This document shows, piece after piece, positions 1,986 to 41,094 of a stretch of DNA of 41,847 nt. The position numbers and the translations under genes were made by a program. The stretch's first letter is position 1. Each line of letters starts with the position of its first letter. The DNA is taken from positions 1 to 41,847 of the forward strand of contig JAUSHZ010000011.1 of assembly GCA_030648255.1 (NCBI GenBank), written 5' to 3'. The notes under the pieces were generated by a model. The model was not told where the DNA came from and searched no databases. It saw only the letters and a program-made list of their open reading frames with translations. Origin of the DNA: a bacterium. Lineage in GTDB: Bacteria > Patescibacteriota > Minisyncoccia > Minisyncoccales > CG1-02-41-26.

Positions 1986-4127
1986 TTACTTAGAGACGTT
2001 CGACAGATTATTTGTTACACTAGACCAGTATTGTGTAAACTGATTGACGATATCAGATGCAAGCTGAATGGAACTAGATGATCCGCTGTCATTCGCTGGG
2101 ACAAGCACAATATATCCAATCTTAAAGTCCCTCTGTGTATTTGGATATGCCGGCACCCTGTCTTTCCCAGCCAAGGTAAGTATATCATTAATGGTATATG
2201 TTTTTATTGTATCTAAAAAATTTGTAGCTTGAGTACAATTTGGTTCTCCCATAGGATACTCTACTGAAGTTTGAATCACTGGAATCGGCAGAACAGATGT
2301 CTTGGGAATAAGTCCCATAAGATACAAGGATAAATTCGAAAATTTTGGAATAGAATCTTTTCCGTTATGATCAATGCATACCTTCCCTGAAGTTGTGCTG
2401 ACCCAATGGTCATATTGCATAGGATCTGAATATAACAAACTCCCGCTAAACAAATCGGGCATATTTGCATAATGTCCACTTTTCATTCCTTCCCATGGAA
2501 TATATGCAAGCCAATGATGACTTAGTTCATGAGCTAATGCACTCAAATAAGTACCCATATTCCACTGCTCAAAATCAACCACATTAGCGCCCGACTGAAT
2601 AAGACCTGAAATGCCTATACTTACAAAAGATTTCAGCTTTTTTGAAGGTGAATCATAGGATCCAAAATCAGTGCCAATAGTTTCACCTGATTTATTTATC
2701 ATTAGAGATGAGGTGTGTGAGGGCTTTAGCAAAAAAACGACAAGAAAATCATAATTATCCTCGTGATTAGAGTAAAAGTTATTCTGTATGTTATTGACTT
2801 CAAGGTTGTACGTACCGCCTCCTTCTGGCGCGTAGAAATCTCCAGGCACGCCTTCTTTCATAATATCGATACCATTCACAATCTGTGATGTTCCAATAAT
2901 ATTTTCTACTACTTTAACGGTGCTTGATGTGTTAGTTGACTTATTTTTATCGTCAGTGATAGTAATGGTTATTGTGTAAGTTCCCGCTTTACTATAAGAG
3001 TGTTGGAGGGTGTTGGTTTGAATGCTCTGCCCACTCGCAGATCCAGTATCGCCCCAATTTACTGAATAGTTTAAATAACCATTCTCTGGGTCGTGGGCTC
3101 TAATCACCCAAGTGCCTTGCTCGTTCACTTTTAATTGGGTAGGTGCAGTCACGCCATCAATCACTGGTGGTAGATTCCCGGCTGAAGAAGCAATGCAAGC
3201 GCCATTACTACAGCCATTCGGGCAAACATAGGAATCAGCAACAGCATCTATAGAATTTGATGTTGAGTCAACATTTGTTTTACAAGTGAAATCATAAACT
3301 GTATTAGTGCTGACACAATAATCTTCCCACCATTTAGTTTCCCCCATAAGCCGTCCAAAAGCTTTGCCCTTCGTGCTAAAATTTTTATAACCGTCAGAAT
3401 CAGTACAAGTTGCTGGTGTTATTGTTGTATTACAATCGCTTGGACAGTTGCACCTGTTTTCGCCAGGCCCACAAACTCCGTTACCACAAGCAGTGCAAGT
3501 ATATGTTATTTTATTTAACATCGGCTCTTTTGTACAATTAGAATTAAAATTGGTCATCTCCTCAATCAAAGATAAGCCGGAACAACATTTCCTAATACTT
3601 GCAACAGCAGTATTAGCTGTCTGTTCTCCTTCTTTGACACAGCTAACGGGCTGGGGCGTGATTACTGGTTGGCCACAGCCATATATTTTATTTAATTTTG
3701 CTCGGGTGGAATTGCCTAGGTAGCCAGTGCCGTACTTTAAACCAAGAGGTGTTAAAATTTCACTGGCGTATTTTTGTTGAAAAGCCACTACGGCTGAAGC
3801 AGTATATTCTCCGAATTTCGAAGATTGCCCCATACCTGCGCTATCGTAAGATAAACTCTCACCACTTGCTCCATCTTTCATTAAAGCTGTTTGCAATGCG
3901 TCAAATTCTGTTCCGCTTGAACCTATTCCTAAATTAGTATTAAAAGTATGGCACCACTTGACTGGCTGTTGACCTTGAGTTTGCTGTAATTGAGCTTGCA
4001 AGGCCTGGATTTGAGCCTGCAATTGCGCAATAAGCGCCCTTAGATCGTCAACTGACACGGCTTTAGTAAAAACAGGTATTGCCAAAGCACACACTAACAA
4101 CAACGATAAGATTATTTTGTTTTTCAT
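1986..4127 (-). CDS. Secreted peptidoglycan-binding, PKD-containing HExxH metallopeptidase-like protein
   Basis: 713-aa exported protein. Order: signal peptide (1-22), short LQAQ-type coiled coil (25-55), peptidoglycan-binding domain (about 58-150), cysteine-rich segments (157-312) including a 'CTDSDG ... CPNGCSNGAC' module, a PKD domain (318-410, with NWGDTGSASG and HSYSKAGTYTITI), then about 300 residues holding HELSHHW (His533, Glu534, His537). Histidine 574 in MQYDHW is a possible third zinc ligand. The later LSLYLMGLIP and FKIGYIVLV stretches recall uncharacterised HExxH proteins with a 'LYLMGL' motif, from memory of the family. The first 150 residues are almost the same as those of the surface protein at 12098-15340. 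Likely tethered to the wall and acting outside the cell; substrate unknown. Confidence 0.75.
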   Translation of the reverse strand: MKNKIILSLLLVCALAIPVFTKAVSVDDLRALIAQLQAQIQALQAQLQQTQGQQPVKWCHTFNTNLGIGSSGTEFDALQTALMKDGASGESLSYDSAGMGQSSKFGEYTASAVVAFQQKYASEILTPLGLKYGTGYLGNSTRAKLNKIYGCGQPVITPQPVSCVKEGEQTANTAVASIRKCCSGLSLIEEMTNFNSNCTKEPMLNKITYTCTACGNGVCGPGENRCNCPSDCNTTITPATCTDSDGYKNFSTKGKAFGRLMGETKWWEDYCVSTNTVYDFTCKTNVDSTSNSIDAVADSYVCPNGCSNGACIASSAGNLPPVIDGVTAPTQLKVNEQGTWVIRAHDPENGYLNYSVNWGDTGSASGQSIQTNTLQHSYSKAGTYTITITITDDKNKSTNTSSTVKVVENIIGTSQIVNGIDIMKEGVPGDFYAPEGGGTYNLEVNNIQNNFYSNHEDNYDFLVVFLLKPSHTSSLMINKSGETIGTDFGSYDSPSKKLKSFVSIGISGLIQSGANVVDFEQWNMGTYLSALAHELSHHWLAYIPWEGMKSGHYANMPDLFSGSLLYSDPMQYDHWVSTTSGKVCIDHNGKDSIPKFSNLSLYLMGLIPKTSVLPIPVIQTSVEYPMGEPNCTQATNFLDTIKTYTINDILTLAGKDRVPAYPNTQRDFKIGYIVLVPANDSGSSSSIQLASDIVNQFTQYWSSVTNNLSNVSK

Positions 4128-4145
4128 ATTTTTGAAATTAATTAA

Positions 4146-10723: not shown

Positions 10724-10789
10724 ATTTTACCAAACCCTTATTTTTTAGCAAACCCCGTTAGAGTTTAAATGTAATTTAGCGATTACATT
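10724..10789 (-). promoter_or_regulatory. ybeY promoter (leaderless) with upstream dyad
   Basis: TTGCTA (10751-10746), a 16-base spacer and TAAAAT (10729-10724). Only six bases separate the -10 from the ATG at 10717, so transcription should start at or next to the start codon. Upstream, AATGTAAT / ATTACATT (10768-10775 and 10782-10789) form a perfect 8-bp dyad that could be an operator or the 3' hairpin of the ATPase gene. Confidence 0.6.
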
Positions 10790-12097: not shown

Positions 12098-15000
12098 TTA
12101 TTTTTTACAGGCTCCATCAAGGCAACCATTTGGGCAAGAAACCCATTTTGCGCTATAGATTGTTCCAGAAACACAATAATTTTCAAGCACTTGATTATTG
12201 CTGCAATAATCTATTCCTTCCGAGATAAAACTGCTGCTGTCTCCTTGATATATTCCAGTTGTTTTGCCTTTTAAGTATGCGTTGTCTCCATCTGTATCAA
12301 CGCAAGCGTTTACTGATTGTGGTTGAACGCACTTTCCAGACGAGCATGCGCAATATCTATCGCCAAATGTCAACTTTCCATTTAAGCAAGAGTATTCTTT
12401 TAAATGATCCCCTTCTGTTACTGCGTTGCCGGGGTCTCCTTGGTAACAATAATCTATTACTTCGCGGTAGCCAGAACCCAAAAACGATCCCCTATAATAA
12501 ATACTCGTATCTGTATTTCCTTTTACAGTACCCGCCTCATAAAGATTATATCCACCGTCTGTATCGCTGCAGGCTACAGGTGTTGTTGGTGCGACAATAC
12601 TAAAATAACTGTCGCTTTCATCATAAACACTACCCCCAGATTCACTAACTTTTATTTTATAGTGACTCCCTGCATTGGTTCCATATCCAACAGGAATAAG
12701 CCAAGAAAAAGTTTTTGAAGAAGCGCTAATGTCAGATATAGTGTTTAAAAGAATCCATTGACTTGAATTATCACTTACATTACGAATAAAAGCTTGGACA
12801 TTTGCTATATTTGCGCTACTCCATTTAATTATCAGAGAATCGCCTTCTTTAAAGGTTTCCCCGCCATTAGGAGAAACCACAGAAATTGATTTCTGGACTG
12901 GCACAACAACATTGTATGTCTTCACATTGTCATTCTCATTTATTTCGCTGATTTCATTCGTAGGGTCAACCCTAAACACTAAAGAATAAGTGGCGCCTGG
13001 AGTTGGGTTATTAAATGTTGAATACTCGTATCTAACTATGCCATAACCGCCCGGCTTGGGCATTTGATCGCTTGACATATAGCCGTAGTTACTAGTTTTA
13101 ACTCCAGCCATTTCAGCTTGAACAGAAACCGAGCTCGGAGTTTTCGTGCCAACATTCCAAACCTCCACAGTAAATCCATTCTGGTCAATCTTAATAGCGC
13201 CAGGATATAAATCAATAGAATTTTGAACTGGCTGCGCAACGCAAGCGCCATTACTGCAGCCATTTGGGCAATTTGCCACCTGCGAAGTAATATATCCATT
13301 AGAAGTACAGTATAGCTCATACACAGCACAATTACTTGTGCAACTTCCAACCTCATGTCTGTTATAAATATTAGTAGAGTTAACCTCGTTTTGCCATGGA
13401 TAAGATCCGTTAGATCCTTTTTGGACACAAAAATCATGCATCTCTCCAAATTTTCCCTGATAACCATCACCAAAATAAGCTAAATTACCATATGTATTAC
13501 CCTTCTCATAAATATTGGAACCACTATCTGAATCAGTGCAAGAAGTTGACAGCTGTTCAACAATGCTAAAATAGTTGCTATTGCTCCAAACATCATCTAA
13601 TTGATTTTTAGAAACATCTTTACCAAGCCAATCCGTGCCAATAAATATCCTGTATTGATATGGGCCAGCCATTAATATCCTAGTGAAAACATTGTTGGTC
13701 TTTCCATAACCCATTGCCCAATTTTGGCTAGAAATTACAGGAATTTTCCAAGAGTAAAAGCCTTGCGAAGCAGGAATATTGGTTGCTATATTTGAGCCAG
13801 AATTTGCCCCATCAGACCTCGTTAAAGCTAAATAAACCTTTGCGTCAGAGGGTAAGCCACTTGATTTCCATCTTATCGTAAAAGTATCTCCTTGCTTTAG
13901 CGTCTCTCCGCCGGTCGGCGAAGTTATAGAAATAGATTTTTGAGTGGATTCTGCTACATCGCAGGCAATATTGCTATTGGCGTTGCTGTTGGAACTTGTG
14001 CAACCAACTCCGCCACCAGTAGTGCATCCCTGATAAACGCCAGTGTTTTTGTTAAAACATACTTGAGCGTAATTATTCTTGCGACAAACATTAAAATATT
14101 CGGCTCCTGAAATTTTCAATGCTTCACAACTAATAACTGGGGTTGTGGCTATTGGTTTGCAAGCTCCATCAATGCAACCATTTGGGCAAATATAAGATTC
14201 AGTGGCAAATTTTGATTGAGCATCGCAGTAGCGCTCTTTTAGGATGGTAAAATCGCAGACATCATCTCCGATGGTAATGCCATCATTTGTTGTACCCTTG
14301 GTGTAATAAGATTTTCCACCGTCAGTATCAGTGCAAGTGTTTTGTGTTTGGGAAACAATACTGAAAGAATTGCTTCTGCCAAAGGCATTTGTTTGTGTGT
14401 CAACTATTTTGATATTGTATGTACCAGGACTGACTAATCTCTGCGAATAAAAACAGTGATTGGGATATTTGGAGGCATTGTCATTATTCCATAAACAATT
14501 TGTATCTGAGACTATACCTACTATCCACATAATAGAACCGTATGCTTGGGGAATAATTCGGCCGATTGTATTATATTGCCCGCTGACATTTTGCTCTAAA
14601 TAAGCCGCAACGCGAGCCGGACTTACACTGCCATAAACATCTTGAAAAGAATCGGGTGCTCCGGTCCATTTAATCTCAAAAATTTGTTTTTGCGAGTCAA
14701 CAGAACTCAAAGAATCAACTACTTTACTGTTTTCTGTTAAAACCTCCCCGCCATTGGGTGAAAGCACGGTGATTGATTTATTAATAGTCGGGCATTGAGC
14801 AAATTCGCAATTAGGGCCTTTTCGGCTAACATAAGAGCCGTCGGGGCATTGTTTGACATCCATTGTGCAAACATTTAGGTTGCCACAACCATACAATTTA
14901 TTTAATTTCGCTCTGGTTGATTTGCCTAAATAACCCGTGCCATGTTTCAATCCAAGAGGTGTTAAAATTTCACTAGCGTATTTTTGTTGAAACCCAACAA

Positions 15001-15340
15001 CCGCTGAAGCAGTATATTCTCCGAATTTCGAAGATTGCCCCATACCCGCCGCGCTATCGTAAGACAGATCCGCGCCGCTTGCTCCATCTTTCATTAAGGC
15101 TGTTTGCAATGCATCAAACTCTGCTCCGCTAGATCCAATTCCTAAATTAGTATTAAAAGTATGGCACCACTGAACTGGCTGTTGACCTTGAGTTTGCTGC
15201 AATTGAACTTGCAACGCTTGGATTTGGGCCTGCAACTGCGCAATAAGCGCTCGAAGATCGTCAACACTCACGGCTTTAGCAAAAACAGGTATTGCTAAAG
15301 CGCACACTAACAACAACGATAAGATTATTTTGTTACTCAT
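12098..15340 (-). CDS. Large secreted peptidoglycan-binding surface protein
   Basis: 1080-aa exported protein, probably an adhesin or wall-associated surface protein. Order: signal peptide (1-22), LQAQ coiled coil, peptidoglycan-binding domain (about 58-151), and a cysteine knot-like segment (MDVKQCPDGSYV). Then come three Ig-like modules that each begin with a SPNGGE or SPTGGE motif (near 190, 475 and 835), a CARDB-like domain (about 720-830), and at least four interspersed cysteine modules of the form 'CTDTDGG ... CPNGCxxGAC'. It ends in such a module. The N-terminal 150 residues are nearly identical to those of the peptidase at 1986-4127. No LPXTG or sortase signal is visible, so attachment probably relies on the peptidoglycan-binding domain. 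Confidence 0.8.
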   Translation of the reverse strand: MSNKIILSLLLVCALAIPVFAKAVSVDDLRALIAQLQAQIQALQVQLQQTQGQQPVQWCHTFNTNLGIGSSGAEFDALQTALMKDGASGADLSYDSAAGMGQSSKFGEYTASAVVGFQQKYASEILTPLGLKHGTGYLGKSTRAKLNKLYGCGNLNVCTMDVKQCPDGSYVSRKGPNCEFAQCPTINKSITVLSPNGGEVLTENSKVVDSLSSVDSQKQIFEIKWTGAPDSFQDVYGSVSPARVAAYLEQNVSGQYNTIGRIIPQAYGSIMWIVGIVSDTNCLWNNDNASKYPNHCFYSQRLVSPGTYNIKIVDTQTNAFGRSNSFSIVSQTQNTCTDTDGGKSYYTKGTTNDGITIGDDVCDFTILKERYCDAQSKFATESYICPNGCIDGACKPIATTPVISCEALKISGAEYFNVCRKNNYAQVCFNKNTGVYQGCTTGGGVGCTSSNSNANSNIACDVAESTQKSISITSPTGGETLKQGDTFTIRWKSSGLPSDAKVYLALTRSDGANSGSNIATNIPASQGFYSWKIPVISSQNWAMGYGKTNNVFTRILMAGPYQYRIFIGTDWLGKDVSKNQLDDVWSNSNYFSIVEQLSTSCTDSDSGSNIYEKGNTYGNLAYFGDGYQGKFGEMHDFCVQKGSNGSYPWQNEVNSTNIYNRHEVGSCTSNCAVYELYCTSNGYITSQVANCPNGCSNGACVAQPVQNSIDLYPGAIKIDQNGFTVEVWNVGTKTPSSVSVQAEMAGVKTSNYGYMSSDQMPKPGGYGIVRYEYSTFNNPTPGATYSLVFRVDPTNEISEINENDNVKTYNVVVPVQKSISVVSPNGGETFKEGDSLIIKWSSANIANVQAFIRNVSDNSSQWILLNTISDISASSKTFSWLIPVGYGTNAGSHYKIKVSESGGSVYDESDSYFSIVAPTTPVACSDTDGGYNLYEAGTVKGNTDTSIYYRGSFLGSGYREVIDYCYQGDPGNAVTEGDHLKEYSCLNGKLTFGDRYCACSSGKCVQPQSVNACVDTDGDNAYLKGKTTGIYQGDSSSFISEGIDYCSNNQVLENYCVSGTIYSAKWVSCPNGCLDGACKK

Positions 15341-15377
15341 AAGTTTTTACTTTTTCATTTTTACTTTTAACTTTATT

Positions 15378-15672: not shown

Positions 15673-15924
15673 TTATTTAGATTTAGTATATCTACCAAAT
15701 GTCTTGGCGGGGGCTCCGGTTAGTTTTCTTTGTTTAGCAAACTCTATCCTTTTCTCAAGCCGTCTCAAGGCCGAGCGTTTCAATAATGGCTTGGATTTAG
15801 TCTTTTTCTGAAATTGTCTTTTTCTTACCTCAAGCAAAGTCCCGCTTTTTCTAAGCTTTTGAGTGAAACGCCTTACTAAACTTTGAGTTGTTTCTTTTCC
15901 TTGTTTTTGAGCTATAATTGGCAT
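15673..15924 (-). CDS. rpsU: 30S ribosomal protein S21
   Basis: Small basic ribosomal protein needed for base-pairing initiation on 30S subunits in other bacteria. The core SLVRRFTQKLRKSGTLLEVR matches S21's 'ALRRFKRxxxKxGilxExR' pattern, followed by a long Arg/Lys-rich helix. At 83 aa it is longer than the common 58-70 aa, with a basic C-terminal extension (RKLTGAPAKTFGRYTKSK). The start codon abuts a copy of the family A palindromic element with no Shine-Dalgarno sequence. Confidence 0.9.
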   Translation of the reverse strand: MPIIAQKQGKETTQSLVRRFTQKLRKSGTLLEVRKRQFQKKTKSKPLLKRSALRRLEKRIEFAKQRKLTGAPAKTFGRYTKSK

Positions 15925-16091
15925 ATTAGAAATTCTTAATTGAACGACGAACGATTAGTGAGTTGTGAAATTTAGAAGTTCTTATACCCTGTGAAGTAGA
16001 AATTTGCTCTACAAATTTCTATTTTAAATTTTTTACTAAAAATTTAAAATTACTTCACGGGGTTAAATTCCACTAACCGCTCATTCACCTA
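15925..16091 (-). repeat. Family A palindromic leader element, copy 1 (before rpsU)
   Basis: In the direction of rpsU: stem arms ACCCCGTGAAGTA and TACTTCACAGGGT (16063-15986). They enclose a hairpin ATTTTAAATTT / AAATTTAAAAT and a second hairpin AGAAATTTG / CAAATTTCT. The right arm continues as TATAAGAACTTCTAAATTTC and ends TTTCTAAT directly at the ATG. It fills the whole gap between the HIT gene and rpsU. Confidence 0.8.
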
Positions 16092-17711: not shown

Positions 17712-17996
17712 GTTAGTAATCGTTAATGAATGAGTGGCGATTAGCCACGAGTGAATTTACGAGGACACTTACACCCCGTTAAGTGCGAGCCTGCCCGCAG
17801 TGCTACAGCGTTGCAGGCGGGCGATTAGCGAGCTACTTAACTGGAGTTTGTTTGTATTTCTATCCACGCCCCAGTGAAGTAAAATTTGAGTACAAATTTA
17901 CTTCACGGGGTTAACCAGCTCTAATCTCAGCCATCGCCTCATTCAGTAGAATGACCTACTGGGTACTGGCTCTGACTCGCTAAGGGCTGGTTAAAT
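17712..17996 (-). repeat. Family A palindromic leader element, copy 2 (before hisS), compound
   Basis: In the direction of hisS there are three nested or tandem dyads. The first is TTTAACCAGC / GCTGGTTAA. The second is CCCCGTGAAGTA / TACTTCACTGGGG around an AAATTTGTACTCAAATTT hairpin (17912-17868). The third is CCAGTTAAGTAG / CACTTAACGGGG, whose loop carries a separate GC-rich palindrome at 17789-17822 (GCCTGCCCGCA ... TGCAGGCGGGC). The usual right arm, with GTGGCTAATCGCCAC and TTACTAAC, ends at the ATG. The left end overlaps the last codons of lepB. Confidence 0.75.
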
Positions 17997-22512: not shown

Positions 22513-22881
22513 ATGTTTGGAAAAGGCCTGTTGGCTGGCATAATTGCTTCAATATTAGGGCTTTATTTGGCAACTTTACTTGTGCCAAATGTTTACATTG
22601 ATGGCACAGGATCTGCATTCTGGAAGTCTTTAGCTTTAGCTGGTTTGATTTTAGGGTTGTTGCATGTTTTTATTAAGCCAATCCTTGATTTAATAACCCT
22701 GCCCTTGCGAATCATAACACTAGGCCTTTTTGGCATTTTAATAAATATCGCTATAGTGGAAATTGTGGATATTCTATTTCCATCTGTTCACATTAAAGGC
22801 TTTGTGGCTTTATTGCTTACAAGTTTGATTGTCTGGGGGGCAGATATAATAATTTCTTTTATTATTAAGAAGAAAAAATAA
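22513..22881 (+). CDS. Phage-holin-like (superfamily IV) four-helix membrane protein
   Basis: 122-aa protein with four hydrophobic helices and a lysine tail (IIKKKK). The pattern LLHVFIKPILDLITLPLRIITLGLFGILIN is split by short loops and fits the Phage_holin_4_2 / mycobacterial four-TMS family, a chromosomal membrane protein family of unknown role despite its name. No phage genes are nearby. It has its own promoter and is followed by the secG leader element. Confidence 0.8.
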   Translation: MFGKGLLAGIIASILGLYLATLLVPNVYIDGTGSAFWKSLALAGLILGLLHVFIKPILDLITLPLRIITLGLFGILINIAIVEIVDILFPSVHIKGFVALLLTSLIVWGADIIISFIIKKKK

Positions 22882-22884
22882 GTA

Positions 22885-23075
22885 GTCCGTTAATGAAAAC
22901 GAGGCGATAAGCCGAAGTTTGAATTTACGGAGGACTTACCCCGTGGAGTAGTTTCAAATTTTTTGCTAAAAATTTGAAACAGAAATTTGCAGAGCAAATT
23001 TCTACTCCACAGGGTGTAAGAACTCGTAAATTCACTCGGGCTAATCGCCACTCGCTCATTAACGATTTCTAACAT
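22885..23075 (+). repeat. Family A palindromic leader element, copy 3 (before secG)
   Basis: The clearest copy. The left arm begins CGTTAATGAAAACGAGGCGA, and the right arm read backwards gives CGTTAATGAGCGAGTGGCGA. The central stem is CCGTGGAGTAG / CTACTCCACAGGG, enclosing GTTTCAAATTT / AAATTTGAAAC and AGAAATTTGC / GCAAATTTCT hairpins. It ends GATTTCTAACAT at the secG ATG. Confidence 0.85.
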
Positions 23076-23300
23076 ATGGTATCTATTTTACTAATTTTAC
23101 AAATTGTTGTGCCTTGTCTCTTAGTTGTTTGCATATTACTTCAGCAAAGAGGCACTGCGCTGGGAAGCGCTTTCGGAGGAAGCGGAGGGGGGTTTTACTC
23201 AAAGAGAAGAGGGGCAGAAAAGAAAATCTTTATCGCTACTATCATTTTGAGCATTTTGTTTATAGTTGTTTCTATTTTAAGTTTAGTAAACAAATCTTAA
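23076..23300 (+). CDS. secG: Preprotein translocase subunit SecG
   Basis: 74-aa membrane subunit that aids SecYEG-driven export. Two hydrophobic helices flank the conserved loop LQQRGTALGSAFGGSGG. Normal length. Translation starts straight after the family A element without a Shine-Dalgarno sequence. The solute-binding protein gene follows after 6 bases. Confidence 0.93.
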   Translation: MVSILLILQIVVPCLLVVCILLQQRGTALGSAFGGSGGGFYSKRRGAEKKIFIATIILSILFIVVSILSLVNKS

Positions 23301-32666: not shown

Positions 32667-32767
32667 GTTGACCCCGTTAGAGGCCAAAGTGTGATTATTA
32701 TTCTATCCTAATATCATACCAAATAGCTTAAAGTTAAATCAAGACACTGGCCTCTAACGGGGTTGAC
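32667..32767 (-). promoter_or_regulatory. Large inverted repeat with promoter in its loop, upstream of phosphohexomutase
   Basis: Arms GTTGACCCCGTTAGAGGCCA (32667-32686) and TGGCCTCTAACGGGGTTGAC (32748-32767) pair at 18 of 20 positions, extended by AGTGT / ACACT. The loop carries TTGATT (32742-32737), an 18-base spacer and TATGAT (32718-32713) facing the mutase gene. The CCCCGTTAGAG arm resembles the stem of the family A elements. With copy 4 of that family it fills the 420-base gap 32635-33054. Confidence 0.6.
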
Positions 32768-32796: not shown

Positions 32797-33054
32797 AATC
32801 CGTTAATGAAAACGAGGCGATAAGCCGAAGTTTGAATTTACGGAGAACTTACCCTGTGGAGTAAGATTTGAGGAATTTTTTAAAAGTGTTTAGTCTCAAT
32901 CTTTTAATTATTTTTTCTCTCTTATGTGCCACTGATAACCGTATCCTCAAATCTTAATTTTAAATTTATTAAAATTTAAAATTACTCCACGGGGTGTAAA
33001 AACTATTAAATTCACTCGTGGCTAATCGCCACTCATTCATTAAATATTTCTAAC
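32797..33054 (+). repeat. Family A palindromic leader element, copy 4 (before rpsF)
   Basis: Left arm CGTTAATGAAAACGAGGCGA as in copy 3; central stem ACCCTGTGGAGTAA / TTACTCCACGGGGT. Inside is a perfect 11-bp dyad AAGATTTGAGG / CCTCAAATCTT with a loop of about 80 bases in place of the usual short hairpin, then AATTTTAAATTT / AAATTTAAAATT. It ends ATATTTCTAAC at the rpsF ATG. Confidence 0.8.
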
Positions 33055-33597
33055 ATGAAAGCAATTATTTATGAACTCGCCTATTTAATATCTGGACAAA
33101 TCGATGAAAATCAAGCCCAGGAATTAGCGAAAAAAATAGAAAAAAAGCTGGAGGAAAACAGCGTTATTTTAGGCTCCATAGAGCCCAAAAAGATAAAGCT
33201 GGCCTACATAATCAAAAAACAGCAAGACGGTTATTTGATGAGCGTTGACTTCACATCAGATCCAAAAAACCTTATTGAAATTTCCAAAGAAATGGAAAAA
33301 GAGACAGATGTTTTAAGATTTTTAACTATTAAAAAATCTCCAGAAAAACAAAAAGAGCAGAGAGAAGAACCAATATTGAGAAAACCGGCAGAGCAAAAAA
33401 TTGTTGAAGAAAAAACAGAAACTTCAGTTGAGCCAGTTGTGAGGGAAAAAAAGAAAAAAGAAACCCTTCGACAAGCTCAGGGCAAGCCAGTTGAAAAAGA
33501 ACACAAGGAAGAAGATTTGAAAAAGATTGAAAAAGATCTTGATGAAATTTTAGGCATTCCCGACGAGGACGAGCCGAAGGCGAAGTCCAAGGAGTAG
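33055..33597 (+). CDS. rpsF: 30S ribosomal protein S6 with long charged tail
   Basis: The S6 fold occupies about residues 1-95 (YELAYLISGQIDENQ at the start, KIKLAYIIKKQQDGYLMSVDF and DVLRFLTIKK at the end). The remaining 85 residues are a Lys/Glu-rich low-complexity tail, so the protein is 180 aa instead of about 95-130. The tail includes a peptide, ETLRQAQGK, encoded by a CCCTTCGACAAGCTCAGGG palindrome. First gene of the classical rpsF-ssb-rpsR unit, but here each gene has its own family A element in front. Confidence 0.9.
   Translation: MKAIIYELAYLISGQIDENQAQELAKKIEKKLEENSVILGSIEPKKIKLAYIIKKQQDGYLMSVDFTSDPKNLIEISKEMEKETDVLRFLTIKKSPEKQKEQREEPILRKPAEQKIVEEKTETSVEPVVREKKKKETLRQAQGKPVEKEHKEEDLKKIEKDLDEILGIPDEDEPKAKSKE
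33464..33486. repeat. CCCTTCGACAAGCTCAGGG palindrome inside rpsF
   Basis: CCCTTCGACAAGCTCAGGG plus CAAG. It is the same repeat and reading frame as in ftsK (39216-39238, opposite strand of the window), giving the peptide ETLRQAQGK in both proteins. Confidence 0.85.
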
Positions 33598-33742
33598 AAT
33601 GCCTTAAACCCCGTGAAGTAATTTTAAATTTTTTGCTAAAAATTCAAAATTGAAATTTGTACCCAAATTTCTACTTCACAGGGTGTAAGAACTTGTAAAT
33701 TTCACGGCTCATAAATTCGCCATTCAATTAACAATTTCTAAC
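33598..33742 (+). repeat. Family A palindromic leader element, copy 5 (before ssb)
   Basis: Central stem CCCCGTGAAGTA / TACTTCACAGGG; inner hairpins ATTTTAAATTT / AAATTCAAAAT and GAAATTTG / CAAATTTC (loop TACC). Right arm GTGTAAGAACTTGTAAATTTC ends CAATTTCTAAC at the ssb ATG. The long left arm of copies 3 and 4 is missing. Confidence 0.82.
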
Positions 33743-34258: not shown

Positions 34259-34382
34259 GAGAACCCCAGTTCGGAGCCACCCCAGTTAAGTAGCTCGCTA
34301 ATCGCTCGCACTTAACGGGGTATAAGAACTTCTAAATTTCACGGTTCGCTAATCGCTCACCATTCAATTAAGAATTTCTAAT
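34259..34382 (+). repeat. Family A palindromic leader element, copy 6 (before rpsR), short variant
   Basis: The stem is now CCAGTTAAGT / ACTTAACGGGG, the same variant as in part of copy 2, with AGCTCGCTAATCGCTCGC in the loop instead of two hairpins. Right arm GTATAAGAACTTCTAAATTTC ends GAATTTCTAAT at the rpsR ATG. Confidence 0.78.
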
Positions 34383-35801: not shown

Positions 35802-35996
35802 ATGTTAGAAATCGTTAATGAATGAGTGGCGATTAGCCACGAGTGAATTTACGAGTTCTTACACCCCGTGGAGTAGAAATTTGTGAAAAAAATTTCTATT
35901 CTAAATTTTTTGCTAAAAATTTAGAATTACTCCACAGGGTAAATCCTCCGTAAATTTCAAGCTTCGCCTTAACGGCTCGCTTTCAATAACGGATTA
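35802..35996 (-). repeat. Family A palindromic leader element, copy 7 (before recA)
   Basis: In the direction of recA: left arm CCGTTATTGAAAGCGAGCCG, central stem ACCCTGTGGAGTA / TACTCCACGGGGT, hairpins ATTCTAAATTT / AAATTTAGAAT and AGAAATTT / AAATTTCT. The right arm carries GTGGCTAATCGCCAC and ends GATTTCTAACAT at the ATG. The left arm overlaps the last eight or nine codons of the murE-like gene. Confidence 0.85.
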
Positions 35997-37297
35997 TTTA
36001 ATTCTTCTTTTACCACATTTCTATCGTCCCAAGGGATTTTATTTCCTTTGATTATCATTGATTGCTCCGCCCCCTTGCCAGTTATTAAAACAACATCGCC
36101 TTCTCGGGCTACTGCCAAGCATTTTTTAATGCCCTCCCGCCTATCCTCAATTACAAAAATATTTTGATTTATTATTTTCCCGGCTCTGACACAAGCCACA
36201 GCAATATCTTTTATAATTTCTGCCGGTGGATCATCGTACGGGTCAACATTACTCACCACTACCACATCAGCTAACTTACCAGCCAATTCACCCATTTTTG
36301 GCCTTTTTGTTTTGTCACGGCCTCCCCCTTCTGCTCCTAATAAAACGATTAAATTACCTCCAGATTTTACCAAGCTTCGTCCTGCCCTTAAGGCTAACTC
36401 CATACTTTTTGGCTCATGGGCGTAATCAACTAAAACTGAAAAATTTTGGCCCAAGTCAATTGGCTCCATCCTACCCGGCAAAATTTTTAAGCTAGCCAAG
36501 CCATTTCTAATTTGTTCATAGGGAACTTTCAATAAATCGCCGATCACAATGGCTGGCAAGGCGTTATAAACATTAAACTCGCCAATTAAATTTAATCTGT
36601 ACGATTTTCCTCTGACAAAAAAAGTTGTTCCGTTGTCGTCGCTTTGTAAATTAGTTGCCTGATAATCAGCTGTATTTTTTATACCAAACGAAAATTTATG
36701 TTCTGATTTAAAATTAAAAAAATATTCGCTATTTTCGTCGTCTATGTTAGCAATAATTGTTTTTTTAATGTCTATCCCGGCCAAGTGCTTTTCTGGATAA
36801 TCCATTAATCCGTTAAAAACTTTGCCTTTTGCTTCTTTATACTTTTCAAAACTGTTGCTATGGGATGGCAAATGCTCGGGAGATAAGTTGGTAAAAATCA
36901 AAAAATCAAAATCAATCCCTTTGTGCCTCCACTGCTTAATGCCCTCTGATGTTGCTTCGACAATTGCAAATGAGCAACTCTTTTTTAACATTTTTTTTAA
37001 ATAGCCCTGTATTATAAAAGGCCGGGGCATTGTCATATGATGCTTATTTAAAAAATCTTGCTGGTCAATCCGAATATTGGCTGTACTTATCATTCCTGTT
37101 TTAAACCCAGCCGTATCTAAACAGCTCCAAATGAGATTAGCGGTTGATGTTTTGCCTTTTGTGCCCACAATACCAATAGTTATTAAATTTTTGGAAGGAA
37201 AGCCAAAATACAAAGCCGCTATTTGGCTGCTTAAATAATGATAGGCTAAAACCGCTTTCCCCCCAAGCAATTTTTTAATTGTTGATTTAGCTGACAT
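35969..37297 (-). CDS. murE: MurE-like UDP-N-acetylmuramyl-tripeptide synthetase
   Basis: Mur ligase that adds the third residue of the peptidoglycan stem peptide; which amino acid is not decided here. ATP loop VGTKGKTST (residues 44-52), central motif FTNLSPEHLPSHSN (MurE usually has HLDxH), carbamate/ADP region NVYNALPAIV, and C-terminal DYAHEPKSME and GKGAEQ. 442 aa. The last residues (NPLLKASR) are encoded by the arm of the recA leader element, suggesting the original C-terminus was altered when the element arrived. Confidence 0.85.
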   Translation of the reverse strand: MSAKSTIKKLLGGKAVLAYHYLSSQIAALYFGFPSKNLITIGIVGTKGKTSTANLIWSCLDTAGFKTGMISTANIRIDQQDFLNKHHMTMPRPFIIQGYLKKMLKKSCSFAIVEATSEGIKQWRHKGIDFDFLIFTNLSPEHLPSHSNSFEKYKEAKGKVFNGLMDYPEKHLAGIDIKKTIIANIDDENSEYFFNFKSEHKFSFGIKNTADYQATNLQSDDNGTTFFVRGKSYRLNLIGEFNVYNALPAIVIGDLLKVPYEQIRNGLASLKILPGRMEPIDLGQNFSVLVDYAHEPKSMELALRAGRSLVKSGGNLIVLLGAEGGGRDKTKRPKMGELAGKLADVVVVSNVDPYDDPPAEIIKDIAVACVRAGKIINQNIFVIEDRREGIKKCLAVAREGDVVLITGKGAEQSMIIKGNKIPWDDRNVVKEELNNPLLKASR

Positions 37298-37631: not shown

Positions 37632-39935
37632 TTACTTTCTCTCAAATTCTATGTCGCCAGCGTCGTGGTAGCCGTCGTTTTCAAGCAAATCTCCACTTTC
37701 CCCAATTAAAACTTCTCGGGGCTTGGCGCCATCAGCCGAGCCTACAATACCATCTTCTTCAAGCATATCTAAAATTCTAGCGGCCCTGGCATAGCCAACT
37801 TGCAACCTTCTTTGCAATAAACTTGCCGAGGCCTTTTGGTATTTAACTATTATTTCTTTAGCTTCTTCATAAAGCGGATCTTTAGCTGAAAAATTTACAA
37901 TATCGTCATGGCTATTGGCCCCTACTCCCGAAGCCATAGGCCGAGTTTGTGGCACTTCACCGTCCTCCATCAAGCTAGTCTGCTCTTCAATATTTTGCAT
38001 TTCCAAAGGAGAGTTTTCTTTGGCAATAAAATCAACCACTTTTTTAATTTCAGGCATTGAAATAAAATTTCCCTGAATTCTTTTTGGCCGAGAAAATTCA
38101 GCCGAAATATAAAGCATATCTCCTTTGCCTAATAATTTTTCCGCTCCAGCTGAATCCAAAATAGTGCGAGAGTCAATTTGGCTAGCCACCTGAAAGGCAA
38201 TCCTAGTGGTAATGTTAGCCTTAATAAGCCCGGTAATAACCTCAACCGATGGCCTCTGGGTGGCAACCACCAAGTGTATGCCAACGGCTCTAGCTAGTTG
38301 GCTTAATCGCACAATAGCTGCTTCAACCTCTTTGCCTTTTGTCATCATTAAATCAGCCAGCTCATCAATAATTAAAATAATATATGGCATTGGCTCGGTA
38401 TCGTCCCCCGAATCTGCCACGTTAGCTTTTTTACCTATTTTTAAGGCCTTTTGTTGCTGATTTTTATTGTAAGAAACAATATCTCTAACAGTAGCCTCTT
38501 GCAGTACTTCAAATCTTCTTTCCATTTCTCCCACCAACCAATTTAAAACATTAACCGCTTTTCTAGAATTTAAAATAACTGGAGTCAATAAATGAGGCAA
38601 AGCGCCATAAACTGGAAACTCAACTCGCTTTGGATCAATTAATATAAGCCGTAAATTTCTTGGTGAATTGCGAAAAATTAAGCTATTTACAATTGTGTTT
38701 AAGCAAATACTTTTTCCAGAGCCCGTGGCCCCAGCCACCAACATATGAGGCATGCCAGCTAAATCAACGCAAATTGGATTGCCCATAACATCTTTACCTA
38801 AAGCCAAATTTAAAATAGCTGATGGCTTTTGAAATTCCTGGCTTGATATAACTGTTCCCAATTTTACTTTTGCCCTCACGCTATTTGGCACCTCAATACC
38901 AACGAACGACTTTCCTGGAATTGGCGCTTCAATTCTGATTGGATGAGCAGCCAACGCCAAAGCTAAATCATTATTTAAGCCCGTGAGCTTGGAAAGCTTG
39001 ACTCCATCCGCTGGTTTTAGGGTGTATTGGGTAACAGTAGGCCCCACATTAATCTCTGACATTTCCACTTCTATGCCAAAATTTTGCAAAGTCTTTTTAA
39101 TGGCCGCAGCGTTAAATTCAATATCCCCGCTTGATGGCTTTTCGTCGCCAATTTCCAAAAGTTCAACTGGTGGAAATTTGTATTGAGTATCAAAAAATAC
39201 AGCAGACTCGACTGACTTGCCCTGAGCTTGCCGAAGGGTTTCTTTCTTGGCTTCCACAATAGGCGCTTTTTTAAGGGCTTTTTCTGAAACAGCATTTGAT
39301 GTCTTTATAACCTCAACTGGCTTTATTTCAAATTTTGGCTTTTCTTTATTTTCTAAAGCTAACTTGGCAAGCTTTGCGTCTTTTTCTTTTTGTTTCTCTT
39401 CTTTTGATTTTCCTTGAGGCAACATTTCAAAAACAATAATACCTCCAATTAGAATAAAACAGGCAAACACAATATAGGCAACTGTATTGCCAAAATAATG
39501 AAAAACTGGCCAGCCAAACAAGTAGCCAACCCATCCCCCACCCCTTTCTTCAATTGCTTTAGTAGCTAAAATACCAGAAACGCCAATAGTGCAAAGCCCT
39601 AACACAAAACTGGCTGGCAAAAATATCCGGCGCTTTCTTGGCCTTAAAATTAAAAAACCAGTTAATAAAAGCAAAAACGGCAAAACATAAACCGCTTGCC
39701 CCACTAAAAAATCAAAAACTTTAAAAATTGTTTCCCCCCCAGAACCGGATTTCTGAAAAAAAGAAAAAGCCACTATTACAGCCAAAACAAAAAGGCAAAC
39801 AGCCGCAATTGTTTTTTTAACCCTGTTGGTTAAAACTGGCAAAGTTTCTTTGTCGTTAAAATTCTTGTTGTTTTTTCCGTTTTTATTATTTTGTCCGTTC
39901 CCGTTCTTATTTTTAAATTTATTTTTCTTTCCCAT
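37632..39935 (-). CDS. ftsK: DNA translocase FtsK/SpoIIIE
   Basis: Septal DNA pump coordinating chromosome segregation with division. About four N-terminal membrane helices (40-170), a charged linker containing ETLRQAQGKSVES from a palindromic repeat, the RecA-like motor with GATGSGKS and LILIDPKRVEF and IILIIDELADLMM, and a C-terminal winged-helix gamma domain (ASLLQRRLQVGYARAARIL). I start at the ATG at 39935 (MGKKNKFKN); an upstream GTG overlaps the -10 box. 767 aa, a compact but complete FtsK. The promoter reads TTGCAG, 18 bases, TAAAAT, then 8 bases to the ATG. Confidence 0.95.
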   Translation of the reverse strand: MGKKNKFKNKNGNGQNNKNGKNNKNFNDKETLPVLTNRVKKTIAAVCLFVLAVIVAFSFFQKSGSGGETIFKVFDFLVGQAVYVLPFLLLLTGFLILRPRKRRIFLPASFVLGLCTIGVSGILATKAIEERGGGWVGYLFGWPVFHYFGNTVAYIVFACFILIGGIIVFEMLPQGKSKEEKQKEKDAKLAKLALENKEKPKFEIKPVEVIKTSNAVSEKALKKAPIVEAKKETLRQAQGKSVESAVFFDTQYKFPPVELLEIGDEKPSSGDIEFNAAAIKKTLQNFGIEVEMSEINVGPTVTQYTLKPADGVKLSKLTGLNNDLALALAAHPIRIEAPIPGKSFVGIEVPNSVRAKVKLGTVISSQEFQKPSAILNLALGKDVMGNPICVDLAGMPHMLVAGATGSGKSICLNTIVNSLIFRNSPRNLRLILIDPKRVEFPVYGALPHLLTPVILNSRKAVNVLNWLVGEMERRFEVLQEATVRDIVSYNKNQQQKALKIGKKANVADSGDDTEPMPYIILIIDELADLMMTKGKEVEAAIVRLSQLARAVGIHLVVATQRPSVEVITGLIKANITTRIAFQVASQIDSRTILDSAGAEKLLGKGDMLYISAEFSRPKRIQGNFISMPEIKKVVDFIAKENSPLEMQNIEEQTSLMEDGEVPQTRPMASGVGANSHDDIVNFSAKDPLYEEAKEIIVKYQKASASLLQRRLQVGYARAARILDMLEEDGIVGSADGAKPREVLIGESGDLLENDGYHDAGDIEFERK
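39216..39238. repeat. CCCTTCGACAAGCTCAGGG-type palindrome inside ftsK
   Basis: On the minus strand CCCTTCGGCAAGCTCAGGG plus CAAG, one base different from the rpsF copy. It lies in the linker between membrane and motor domains. Confidence 0.85.
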
Positions 39936-39984
39936 ATATATCGATTTTAGCACACTACCAACCCAGCCTGCAATTGTTAAAAAC

Positions 39985-40020
39985 CAATAAAAACCGCAAA
40001 GGTTGGCATTCCCCTCGCGG
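39985..40020 (-). terminator. Terminator of the RelE/ParE operon (repeat copy 1)
   Basis: Minus strand: CCGCGAGGGG ... CCTTTGCGG hairpin, then TTTTTATT. It is one of three near-copies (also 40573-40610 and 41041-41078) sharing the loop GGTTGRTGTTCCC on the plus strand. Confidence 0.8.
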
Positions 40021-40027
40021 AATAATT

Positions 40028-40303
40028 CTATTTTGGCGGTTTTTTATAAATTTTTGACCTATGGTTAATATAGTGAACAGTAATTTTATTGTCAAAATAA
40101 TCAATTTCGTAAACAACTCGCCAGTCGCCCACCCGTAATTTAAAAAACCCTTGCCACCCATAACCAAGTGGCAAGTGATTAACTGTTTCAAAATTATCGC
40201 ATAACCAGCCAATTTTTTCCAAAACCCTCACTCTGACTTTAATATCTAACGAACCTATATCGCTTTCAGCTTCTTTGGTAAAATTGATTAGCCATTGCGC
40301 CAT
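40028..40303 (-). CDS. RelE/ParE-family toxin
   Basis: 91 aa with the family's fold signature: LPLGYGWQGFFKLRVGDWRVVYEID leads to ITVHYINHRSKIYKK (split here by the DYFDNK turn). Members are ribosome-dependent mRNA endonucleases (RelE) or gyrase inhibitors (ParE); I cannot tell which. The antitoxin gene ends 4 bases upstream. Confidence 0.85.
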   Translation of the reverse strand: MAQWLINFTKEAESDIGSLDIKVRVRVLEKIGWLCDNFETVNHLPLGYGWQGFFKLRVGDWRVVYEIDYFDNKITVHYINHRSKIYKKPPK

Positions 40304-40558: not shown

Positions 40559-40572
40559 ATTTAATTTTAAGT

Positions 40573-40610
40573 AAATAAAAATCCGCAAAGGTTGGTGTTC
40601 CCCTCGCGAA
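40573..40610 (-). terminator. Terminator of the DUF433 unit (repeat copy 2)
   Basis: Minus strand: TTCGCGAGGGG ... CCTTTGCGGA hairpin then TTTTTATTTACTT. With the following TTGACT promoter it forms a terminator-promoter block that is repeated at 41000-41078. Confidence 0.78.
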
Positions 40611-40637
40611 ATTGCGCTGTTGCCACTCATTTATAAT

Positions 40638-41030: not shown

Positions 41031-41040
41031 ATTTTTATTT

Positions 41041-41078
41041 AAATAAAAATCCGCAAAGGTTGATGTTCCCTTGCGGAT
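41041..41078 (-). terminator. Terminator of the hypothetical gene (repeat copy 3)
   Basis: Minus strand: ATCCGCAAGGG / CCTTTGCGGAT hairpin followed by TTTTATTT. The best-formed of the three related terminators. Confidence 0.85.
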
Positions 41079-41094
41079 ATAGTGCGACCCAATT

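Follow-up and report, generated by a model that had tools for sequence, protein, structure and literature searches.

REPs are palindromes of 20-40 bp, tagged at one end by GTAG or CGTC, and they lie predominantly downstream of coding regions (PMC3733652). Most dispersed palindromes of bacteria are found downstream of genes, and a structured leader is normally tied to a single pathway. MITEs and Correia-type elements show target duplications and are found in both orientations and at varied distances. The attC sites of integrons carry RYYYAAC at the 5' end and GTTRRRY at the 3' end. We know of no precedent for exclusive targeting of start codons.

Here we describe a family of palindromic elements located at start codons in the 0.85 Mb genome of a tiny uncultured bacterium, a member of the Paceibacterota near Candidatus Gribaldobacteria. 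The window analyzed is a stretch of 41,847 nucleotides of this genome. The original prediction placed seven copies in it. All seven are present at the predicted positions, and they share one alignment register once oriented by their genes (Table 1). They were thought to abut the ATG without exception. Five end directly at it, but the secG and recA copies carry two extra bases and end TTTCTAAC-AT-ATG. The proposed gene names hisS, secG, rpsF, ssb, rpsR and recA are confirmed by Pfam, whereas 'rpsU' has a weak S21 match below the cut-off (E 0.003). The secG copy has a predicted folding energy of -89.9 kcal/mol, compared with -40.5 kcal/mol for shuffled sequence (z = -12.9). The z-scores range from -6 to -8 for three other copies in the window, and the short rpsR copy reaches -2.8. 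The start of the secG copy lies within the TAA stop codon of the preceding gene (ORF 22513-22881), and the tip of its core hairpin consists of two side-by-side hairpins.

Table 1. Copies of the element in the window, with the three hairpins of the secG copy listed separately
Feature	Position	Strand	Remarks
Copy at S21-like gene (83 aa, 15673-15924)	15925..16091	-	flush at ATG
hisS copy	17712..17996	-	two core hairpins; flush; left arm ends lepB frame (stop 17980)
secG copy, left hairpin AAGTAGTCCGT..ACGGAGGACTT	22880..22937	+	tandem A.G mismatches
secG copy, core hairpin ACCCCGTGGAGTA..TACTCCACAGGGT	22938..23015	+	one C.A mismatch
secG copy, right hairpin GTAAGAACTCGT..ACGATTTCTAAC	23016..23073	+	best conserved part; followed by AT and ATG at 23076
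rpsF copy	32797..33054	+	flush; core tip with longer inserted palindrome AGATTTGAGG..CCTCAAATCT
ssb copy	33598..33742	+	between rpsF stop and ssb ATG; without left hairpin
rpsR copy	34259..34382	+	short; between ssb stop and rpsR ATG
recA copy	35802..35998	-	ends TTTCTAAC-AT-ATG; left arm gives stop of upstream gene (35969)

The window also contains other repeats. Two long direct repeats (3672-4133 and 14882-15346) are 86-88% identical and located at the starts of two large minus-strand genes (ORFs 1986-4127 and 12098-15340). A 53-nt repeat around AAATCCGCAAAGGTTGGTGTTCCCCTCGCG occurs in three copies near small ORFs, at 39976-40028, 40565-40617 and 41033-41085.

The element is a chain of hairpins of 90-330 nt, composed of a left hairpin, one or two cores and a right hairpin. 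The right hairpin is the constant part, and the left is absent from shortened copies such as those at ssb and rpsR. Some copies, including that at hisS, contain a second core, linked by sequence such as GTGGATAGAAATACAAACAA. The two arms of a full copy are mutually complementary, yet each also forms its own hairpin. Four closing pairs followed by tandem purine mismatches characterize the left hairpin; one type has two A.G mismatches, the other G.A/A.G. The left end starts with T-AAGTAATCCGTTA or with TAA-ATGAC/ATGAGC. About a third of the first left-end type directly follow a TATAAT-like box, and one such box (stretch L056) has TTGACA 17 nt further upstream. The second type and the operon copies start at the upstream stop codon. 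This stop can come from the element itself, as the frames upstream of recA and hisS end in the left arm. With its left end at a promoter box or an upstream stop, the element usually fills the entire interval up to the start. Beyond the foot, the tip of the right hairpin is readily replaced by unrelated hairpins, including in distant relatives.

Several additional palindromes were observed in and around the elements. Some copies hold the longer palindrome AGATTTGAGG..CCTCAAATCT, about 100 nt in length, inside the core tip. It is found at 32864-32960 in the window, and near positions 1100, 1900 and 1930 in stretches L056, L090 and L094, respectively. A dispersed palindrome, CCTTCGACAAGCTCAGG, is located at 33454-33494 and 39208-39248 in the window. 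It also forms the right-hairpin tip in copies C1:71317 and C1:88765 of the congener G001, an example of palindromes nesting here. Palindromes consisting of the core alone, ACCCCGTTAGAG..CTCTAACGGGGT, occur as isolated units in intergenic DNA, lacking the right hairpin and not flush with a start. These are found at 32671-32763 and near 10752 (AACCCCGTTAGAG) in the window, and at L072:3793-3862.

The family comprises about 73 copies in the host genome (G000) and about 65 in G001. Covariance-model counts were about 64 in G000, 65 in G001 and 13 in G022, and the structure model identified one or two copies in each of nine other family members. A second right-arm subfamily, found in ribosomal operons, adds 9 further copies in G000. 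No copy was detected by the structure model in the congener G002. This genome is of the same genus and 95% complete, while its sister species have about 65 copies each.

To locate the gene-side ends, a profile of the right-arm sequence was built without the ATG and searched over the whole host genome and 39 relatives. Distances were counted in the fetched stretches of three genomes, which hold 122 copies that keep this end. The right end and the ATG are separated by 0 nt in 104 of the 122 copies. The gap in the other 18 is 2 nt (12 copies), 3 nt (one), 6 nt (three) or 8 nt (two). At every one of the 122 right ends the start codon is ATG and opens a reading frame, and the element is in the sense orientation. 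The constant orientation noted in the seven copies and the suspected clustering at gene starts therefore extend to all 122, each within 8 nt of an ATG, and no copies dispersed irrespective of starts or orientation were found within the genus. The other seven profile matches come from left arms, matched on the opposite strand. A stem-only scan blind to the ATG recovered no genuine copy off a start codon; its ATG-less residue consists of left arms and matches at the chance level.

Could this placement arise from assembly artefacts or misread gene starts? The genome is a draft assembly in 33 contigs. However, assemblies produced independently by other projects have the same element at the starts of orthologous genes. 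The start codons also agree with those of element-free orthologues. An artefact is extremely improbable.

The element precedes unrelated genes. Of 70 element-bearing genes examined, 20 encode ribosomal proteins. Other carriers are rpoC, nusA, nusB, nusG, gyrB, dnaG, holA, ssb, recA, secY, secG and dnaK, as well as pheS, hisS, pyrG, rnpA, type IV pilus genes and two-component regulators. Many of these genes are essential. In ribosomal operons, successive genes each have their own copy.

The foot of the right stem is highly regular. In 121 copies its 12 bp read N-TA-A-GWA-Y-TSST paired with ASSA-Y-TWC-T-A-A-N'. The pair adjoining the AUG is G-C in 87 copies, A-T in 21, C-G in three and T-A in two. 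Position 6 alternates between A-T and T-A, position 10 between C-G and T-A, and position 11 between G-C and C-G. An A.A mismatch occupies position 3 in 120 of the 121 copies, and most copies have a pyrimidine mismatch at position 8. Among 37 diverse arms, 98.1% of cells are paired, compared with 85.8% in shuffles, although the 98.1% is inflated because the arms were selected partly for pairing (at least 9/10); the pair counts over all copies used no such filter. Seven pairs change on both sides, a number reached by none of 500 shuffles, and slid-register controls gave no pairing near that of the true register. As judged from these substitutions, selection maintains the right stem in paired form, either as RNA or as single-stranded DNA. 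On the mRNA strand, its A.C mismatches outnumber G.U (21 versus 7), and the core is mixed. This excess does not favor constraint at the RNA level. The compensatory changes would fit a DNA hairpin as well as an RNA leader helix.

Translation signals around the element were compared with those of element-free genes. No Shine-Dalgarno sequence is visible in any copy, in agreement with the original prediction, but this is not specific to the element. Element-free genes have one in 3 of 47 cases, compared with 4 of 47 in a control window, and its absence from the leaders is thus ordinary here. T or C is preferred at -1 in element-free genes, and G never occurs. A search of this assembly for the 16S rRNA, which would carry the anti-Shine-Dalgarno, found none. 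The predicted unpairedness of the AUG is the same with and without the element (0.53 and 0.52), and we rejected the idea that the element frees the AUG from structure. A leader peptide ending in TAA-N-ATG for translational coupling was likewise rejected, as only 2 of 120 leaders have one. Some -10 boxes are located only 5-9 nt from the ATG. Leaderless transcripts as a general rule are not supported, since the -10 boxes of element-free genes lie at several distances, often 22-27 nt.

The fixed position, the fixed orientation and the compensated stem support a function as a leader. In one alternative, the element is primarily a cis-acting RNA leader for translation or mRNA processing, which is spread by gene conversion and kept by selection. 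A cut at the foot of the right hairpin, for example, would produce messages starting at the AUG. This would account for the perfect placement and orientation at true starts and for the compensation at the pair touching the AUG. The 20 of 70 carriers that are ribosomal proteins, together with rpoC, gyrB, dnaK, secY and recA, are consistent with it, as are the lack of Shine-Dalgarno sequences throughout and the -10 boxes very close to the ATG. However, most genes, and the whole of G002, manage without the element, and the same gene can be filled in one species and empty in the next. The prevalence of A.C over G.U in the right stem, the unchanged predicted accessibility of the AUG and the absence of a reading-frame or coupling design also argue against it. 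We regard this alternative as possible but doubtful.

Comparison with relatives revealed many empty sites. The rpsF-ssb-rpsR spacers are 0-20 nt in most relatives, compared with 124-145 nt in G000. The ssb site is empty in G002 and most relatives, the rpsR site is empty in G002 (TAAAATATG), and the recA site is empty in G001. Of 95 orthologue pairs from G000 and G001, both members carry the element in 40. Another 24 were scored as carrying it in a single member, and about 15 of these are clean by eye. The clean pairs include pilM, pilB, secY, rplC, rplV, rpsS, rplB, rplN and holA. Between these two genomes, recA and hisS are filled in G000 only. Only 9 of 34 pairs of orthologous leaders are mutual best matches, even though their proteins often exceed 85% identity; this fraction is approximate, because a few of the pairs, including recA and hisS, are not truly filled in both. 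The leaders therefore turn over faster than the genes. The unrelated carrier genes, the empty sites, the quick turnover and the patchy spread together support mobility, as far as genome comparison can indicate it.

Filled and empty pairs show no constant target-site duplication, and the old left spacer is often lost when an element is gained. Simple insertion does not predict such loss at polymorphic left junctions. Candidate drivers were also considered. Y1 transposase genes do not track the element: there is one in G000 and three in the element-free G002, and several element-bearing relatives have none. Reverse transcriptase does not track it either, with one RVT_1 gene in G000 and none in G001, which has an equal copy number. 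Both were rejected as the driver. The element was not found in viral contigs.

Relatives of the element exist beyond the genus. A pattern scan of named genomes placed the strict family in Candidatus Gribaldobacteria and Paceibacterota. Perfect stems were also found by pattern scan in Kaiserbacteria RIFCSPLOWO2_01_FULL_54_13, ARS1360 and one Planctomycetota MAG (G418). An ATG-blind scan of 197 kb from these three sources yielded 17 stems, compared with 0.2 in shuffled sequence, and 4 of the 17 lie away from any plausible gene start. The Kaiserbacteria genome has 12 clear copies, 10 of which end flush at an ATG; in nine of these 10 the ATG opens a frame of at least 80 aa. The stem in ARS1360 likewise stands at an ATG. 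Judging from the N-termini, we take the genes behind these copies to include rpoB, rplK and nusB, and presumably ssb has one too; the gene at the ARS1360 copy is presumably rpmB on the same grounds. The position-3 A.A mismatch is retained throughout. One of three hairpins in the Planctomycetota MAG lies at a gene start, and mis-binning of this MAG is possible. These hairpins are either family relatives without start preference or parts of mis-binned contigs. In stretches L316 and L317 of this MAG, one hairpin is located at the ATG of a TetR-like gene and one beside tRNA genes. The third is in apparently non-coding DNA.

Exact-pattern matches in Bacilli, Methylotenera and Methylophaga were rejected as chance, as their stems pair at 5-7 of 10 positions. 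The sampled phylum searches used strict filters, which the Kaiserbacteria form would escape, and so they do not prove absence elsewhere. In L129 (G016) and L141 (G024), rpsR is preceded by a different sequence that ends TACCACT at the ATG. This leader is palindromic in G016, and may represent a second, unrelated start-flush family.

Another explanation is purely selfish DNA with a sequence-specific, ATG-adjoining target and no function in the transcript, the compact genome having purged copies elsewhere. Modular palindromes, nested inserts, patchy distribution and turnover would all be expected of it, and the related hairpins off start codons in the Planctomycetota MAG point the same way. By a rough estimate, however, start codons should not outnumber the intergenic ATGs that are not starts, yet no copy among the 122 uses such an intergenic ATG. 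Essential operons with a copy at successive genes are also difficult to reconcile with it. We consider this explanation unlikely.

The original prediction offered a mobile palindrome and a shared 5' leader as a choice. Each part finds support, but the two are not alternatives, and the data support both at once. The simplest account of mobility, placement and stem selection is a palindrome that is mobile and persists as a leader. On balance, we think that the elements are probably a non-autonomous mobile palindrome family that is specialized for the gene start and becomes a structured leader there. A copy would be placed with its right end abutting the start codon in the sense orientation, replacing the short spacer between the stop or -10 box and the ATG. 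It would then serve as the structured 5' leader or the intercistronic spacer of that gene. Its left end would bring a TAA able to close the upstream frame, and its hairpin chain would end exactly at the AUG. The -10 boxes flush with the left end suggest that transcripts include the element as a leader. A factor, most probably a protein, may recognize the imperfect hairpin feet (NTAAG..CTAAN' with A.A mismatches). Such binding would keep the stems paired and the mismatches fixed, and the feet would be a likely handle for both spread and transcript function. Movement itself probably depends on an enzyme.

The strict placement implies that copies are either inserted specifically at starts or survive nowhere else. 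Survival alone could explain the start bias, which weighs against the combined mobile and leader reading, although we lean toward start-codon targeting. A broader possibility, which we put forward tentatively, is that these elements form a new class whose insertion targets translation starts, for example via the 5' ends of processed or leaderless mRNAs. Such an element would be a mobile 5' UTR that rewires a genome free of Shine-Dalgarno sequences, gives dozens of essential genes interchangeable structured leaders and has deep relatives across Patescibacteria. If a mobile family does occupy the starts of ribosomal, replication, transcription and secretion genes, it would represent a new lifestyle of elements in a streamlined genome. 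It would also offer a rare handle on how start codons are marked in Patescibacteria, here without a visible Shine-Dalgarno sequence. The empty and filled orthologues make the questions of mobility and start marking directly testable.

The element was compared with described systems. In a search of the window against Rfam 15, only a tRNA reached its gathering threshold, and the element matched no family. No description of such a family was found in the literature searched, which included few subscription papers. The earlier statement that no such family is described in this lineage holds for these sources, but its restriction to the lineage is too narrow, given the divergent relatives in Kaiserbacteria and ARS1360. 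Like the REP/REPIN sequences associated with RAYT (TnpA-REP), the element is high-copy, imperfect, extragenic, non-autonomous and patchy in distribution (PMC3733652, PMC3116915, PMC8266576). Unlike them, it forms chains of 90-330 nt, has feet of the form NTAAG..CTAAN' in place of a GTAG or CGTC tag, and is always upstream, sense and at a start codon (122/122), with Y1 genes that do not track it. It therefore differs from REP/REPIN in size, tag, location and Y1 association, and this identity was rejected. MITEs and Correia-type elements (NEMIS) are also short mobile inverted repeats that can sit near starts. In contrast to these, the element has one orientation and no clear duplication, and lies 0-8 nt from the ATG.

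Mitochondrial GC clusters and double-hairpin elements are described as mobile hairpins that fill intergenic regions of small AT-rich genomes (PMC4478555, PMC5910586). The element described here resides in a different type of genome. To our knowledge, mitochondrial mobile palindromes are not confined to start codons in one orientation. A group II intron or retroelement was rejected, because the presence of reverse transcriptase does not match that of the element. Integron attC sites share with it an imperfect hairpin with a variable tip, a location between stop and start, and boxes ending TAAC. However, the polarity is opposite, as the element has GTAAG on its 5' side and TTCTAAC on its 3' side, and attC identity was rejected. 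Furthermore, gene order is conserved with relatives that have empty sites, so cassettes are absent here. Structured 5' leaders, such as riboswitches and ribosomal-protein leaders, have in common with the element a structure that is kept by compensation and adjoins the start codon. The element differs from them in that it is found at about 70 unrelated genes with no one pathway, is polymorphic between species and lacks an Rfam match. Its parts, a palindrome and a hairpin leader, are familiar, but we regard their arrangement as new.
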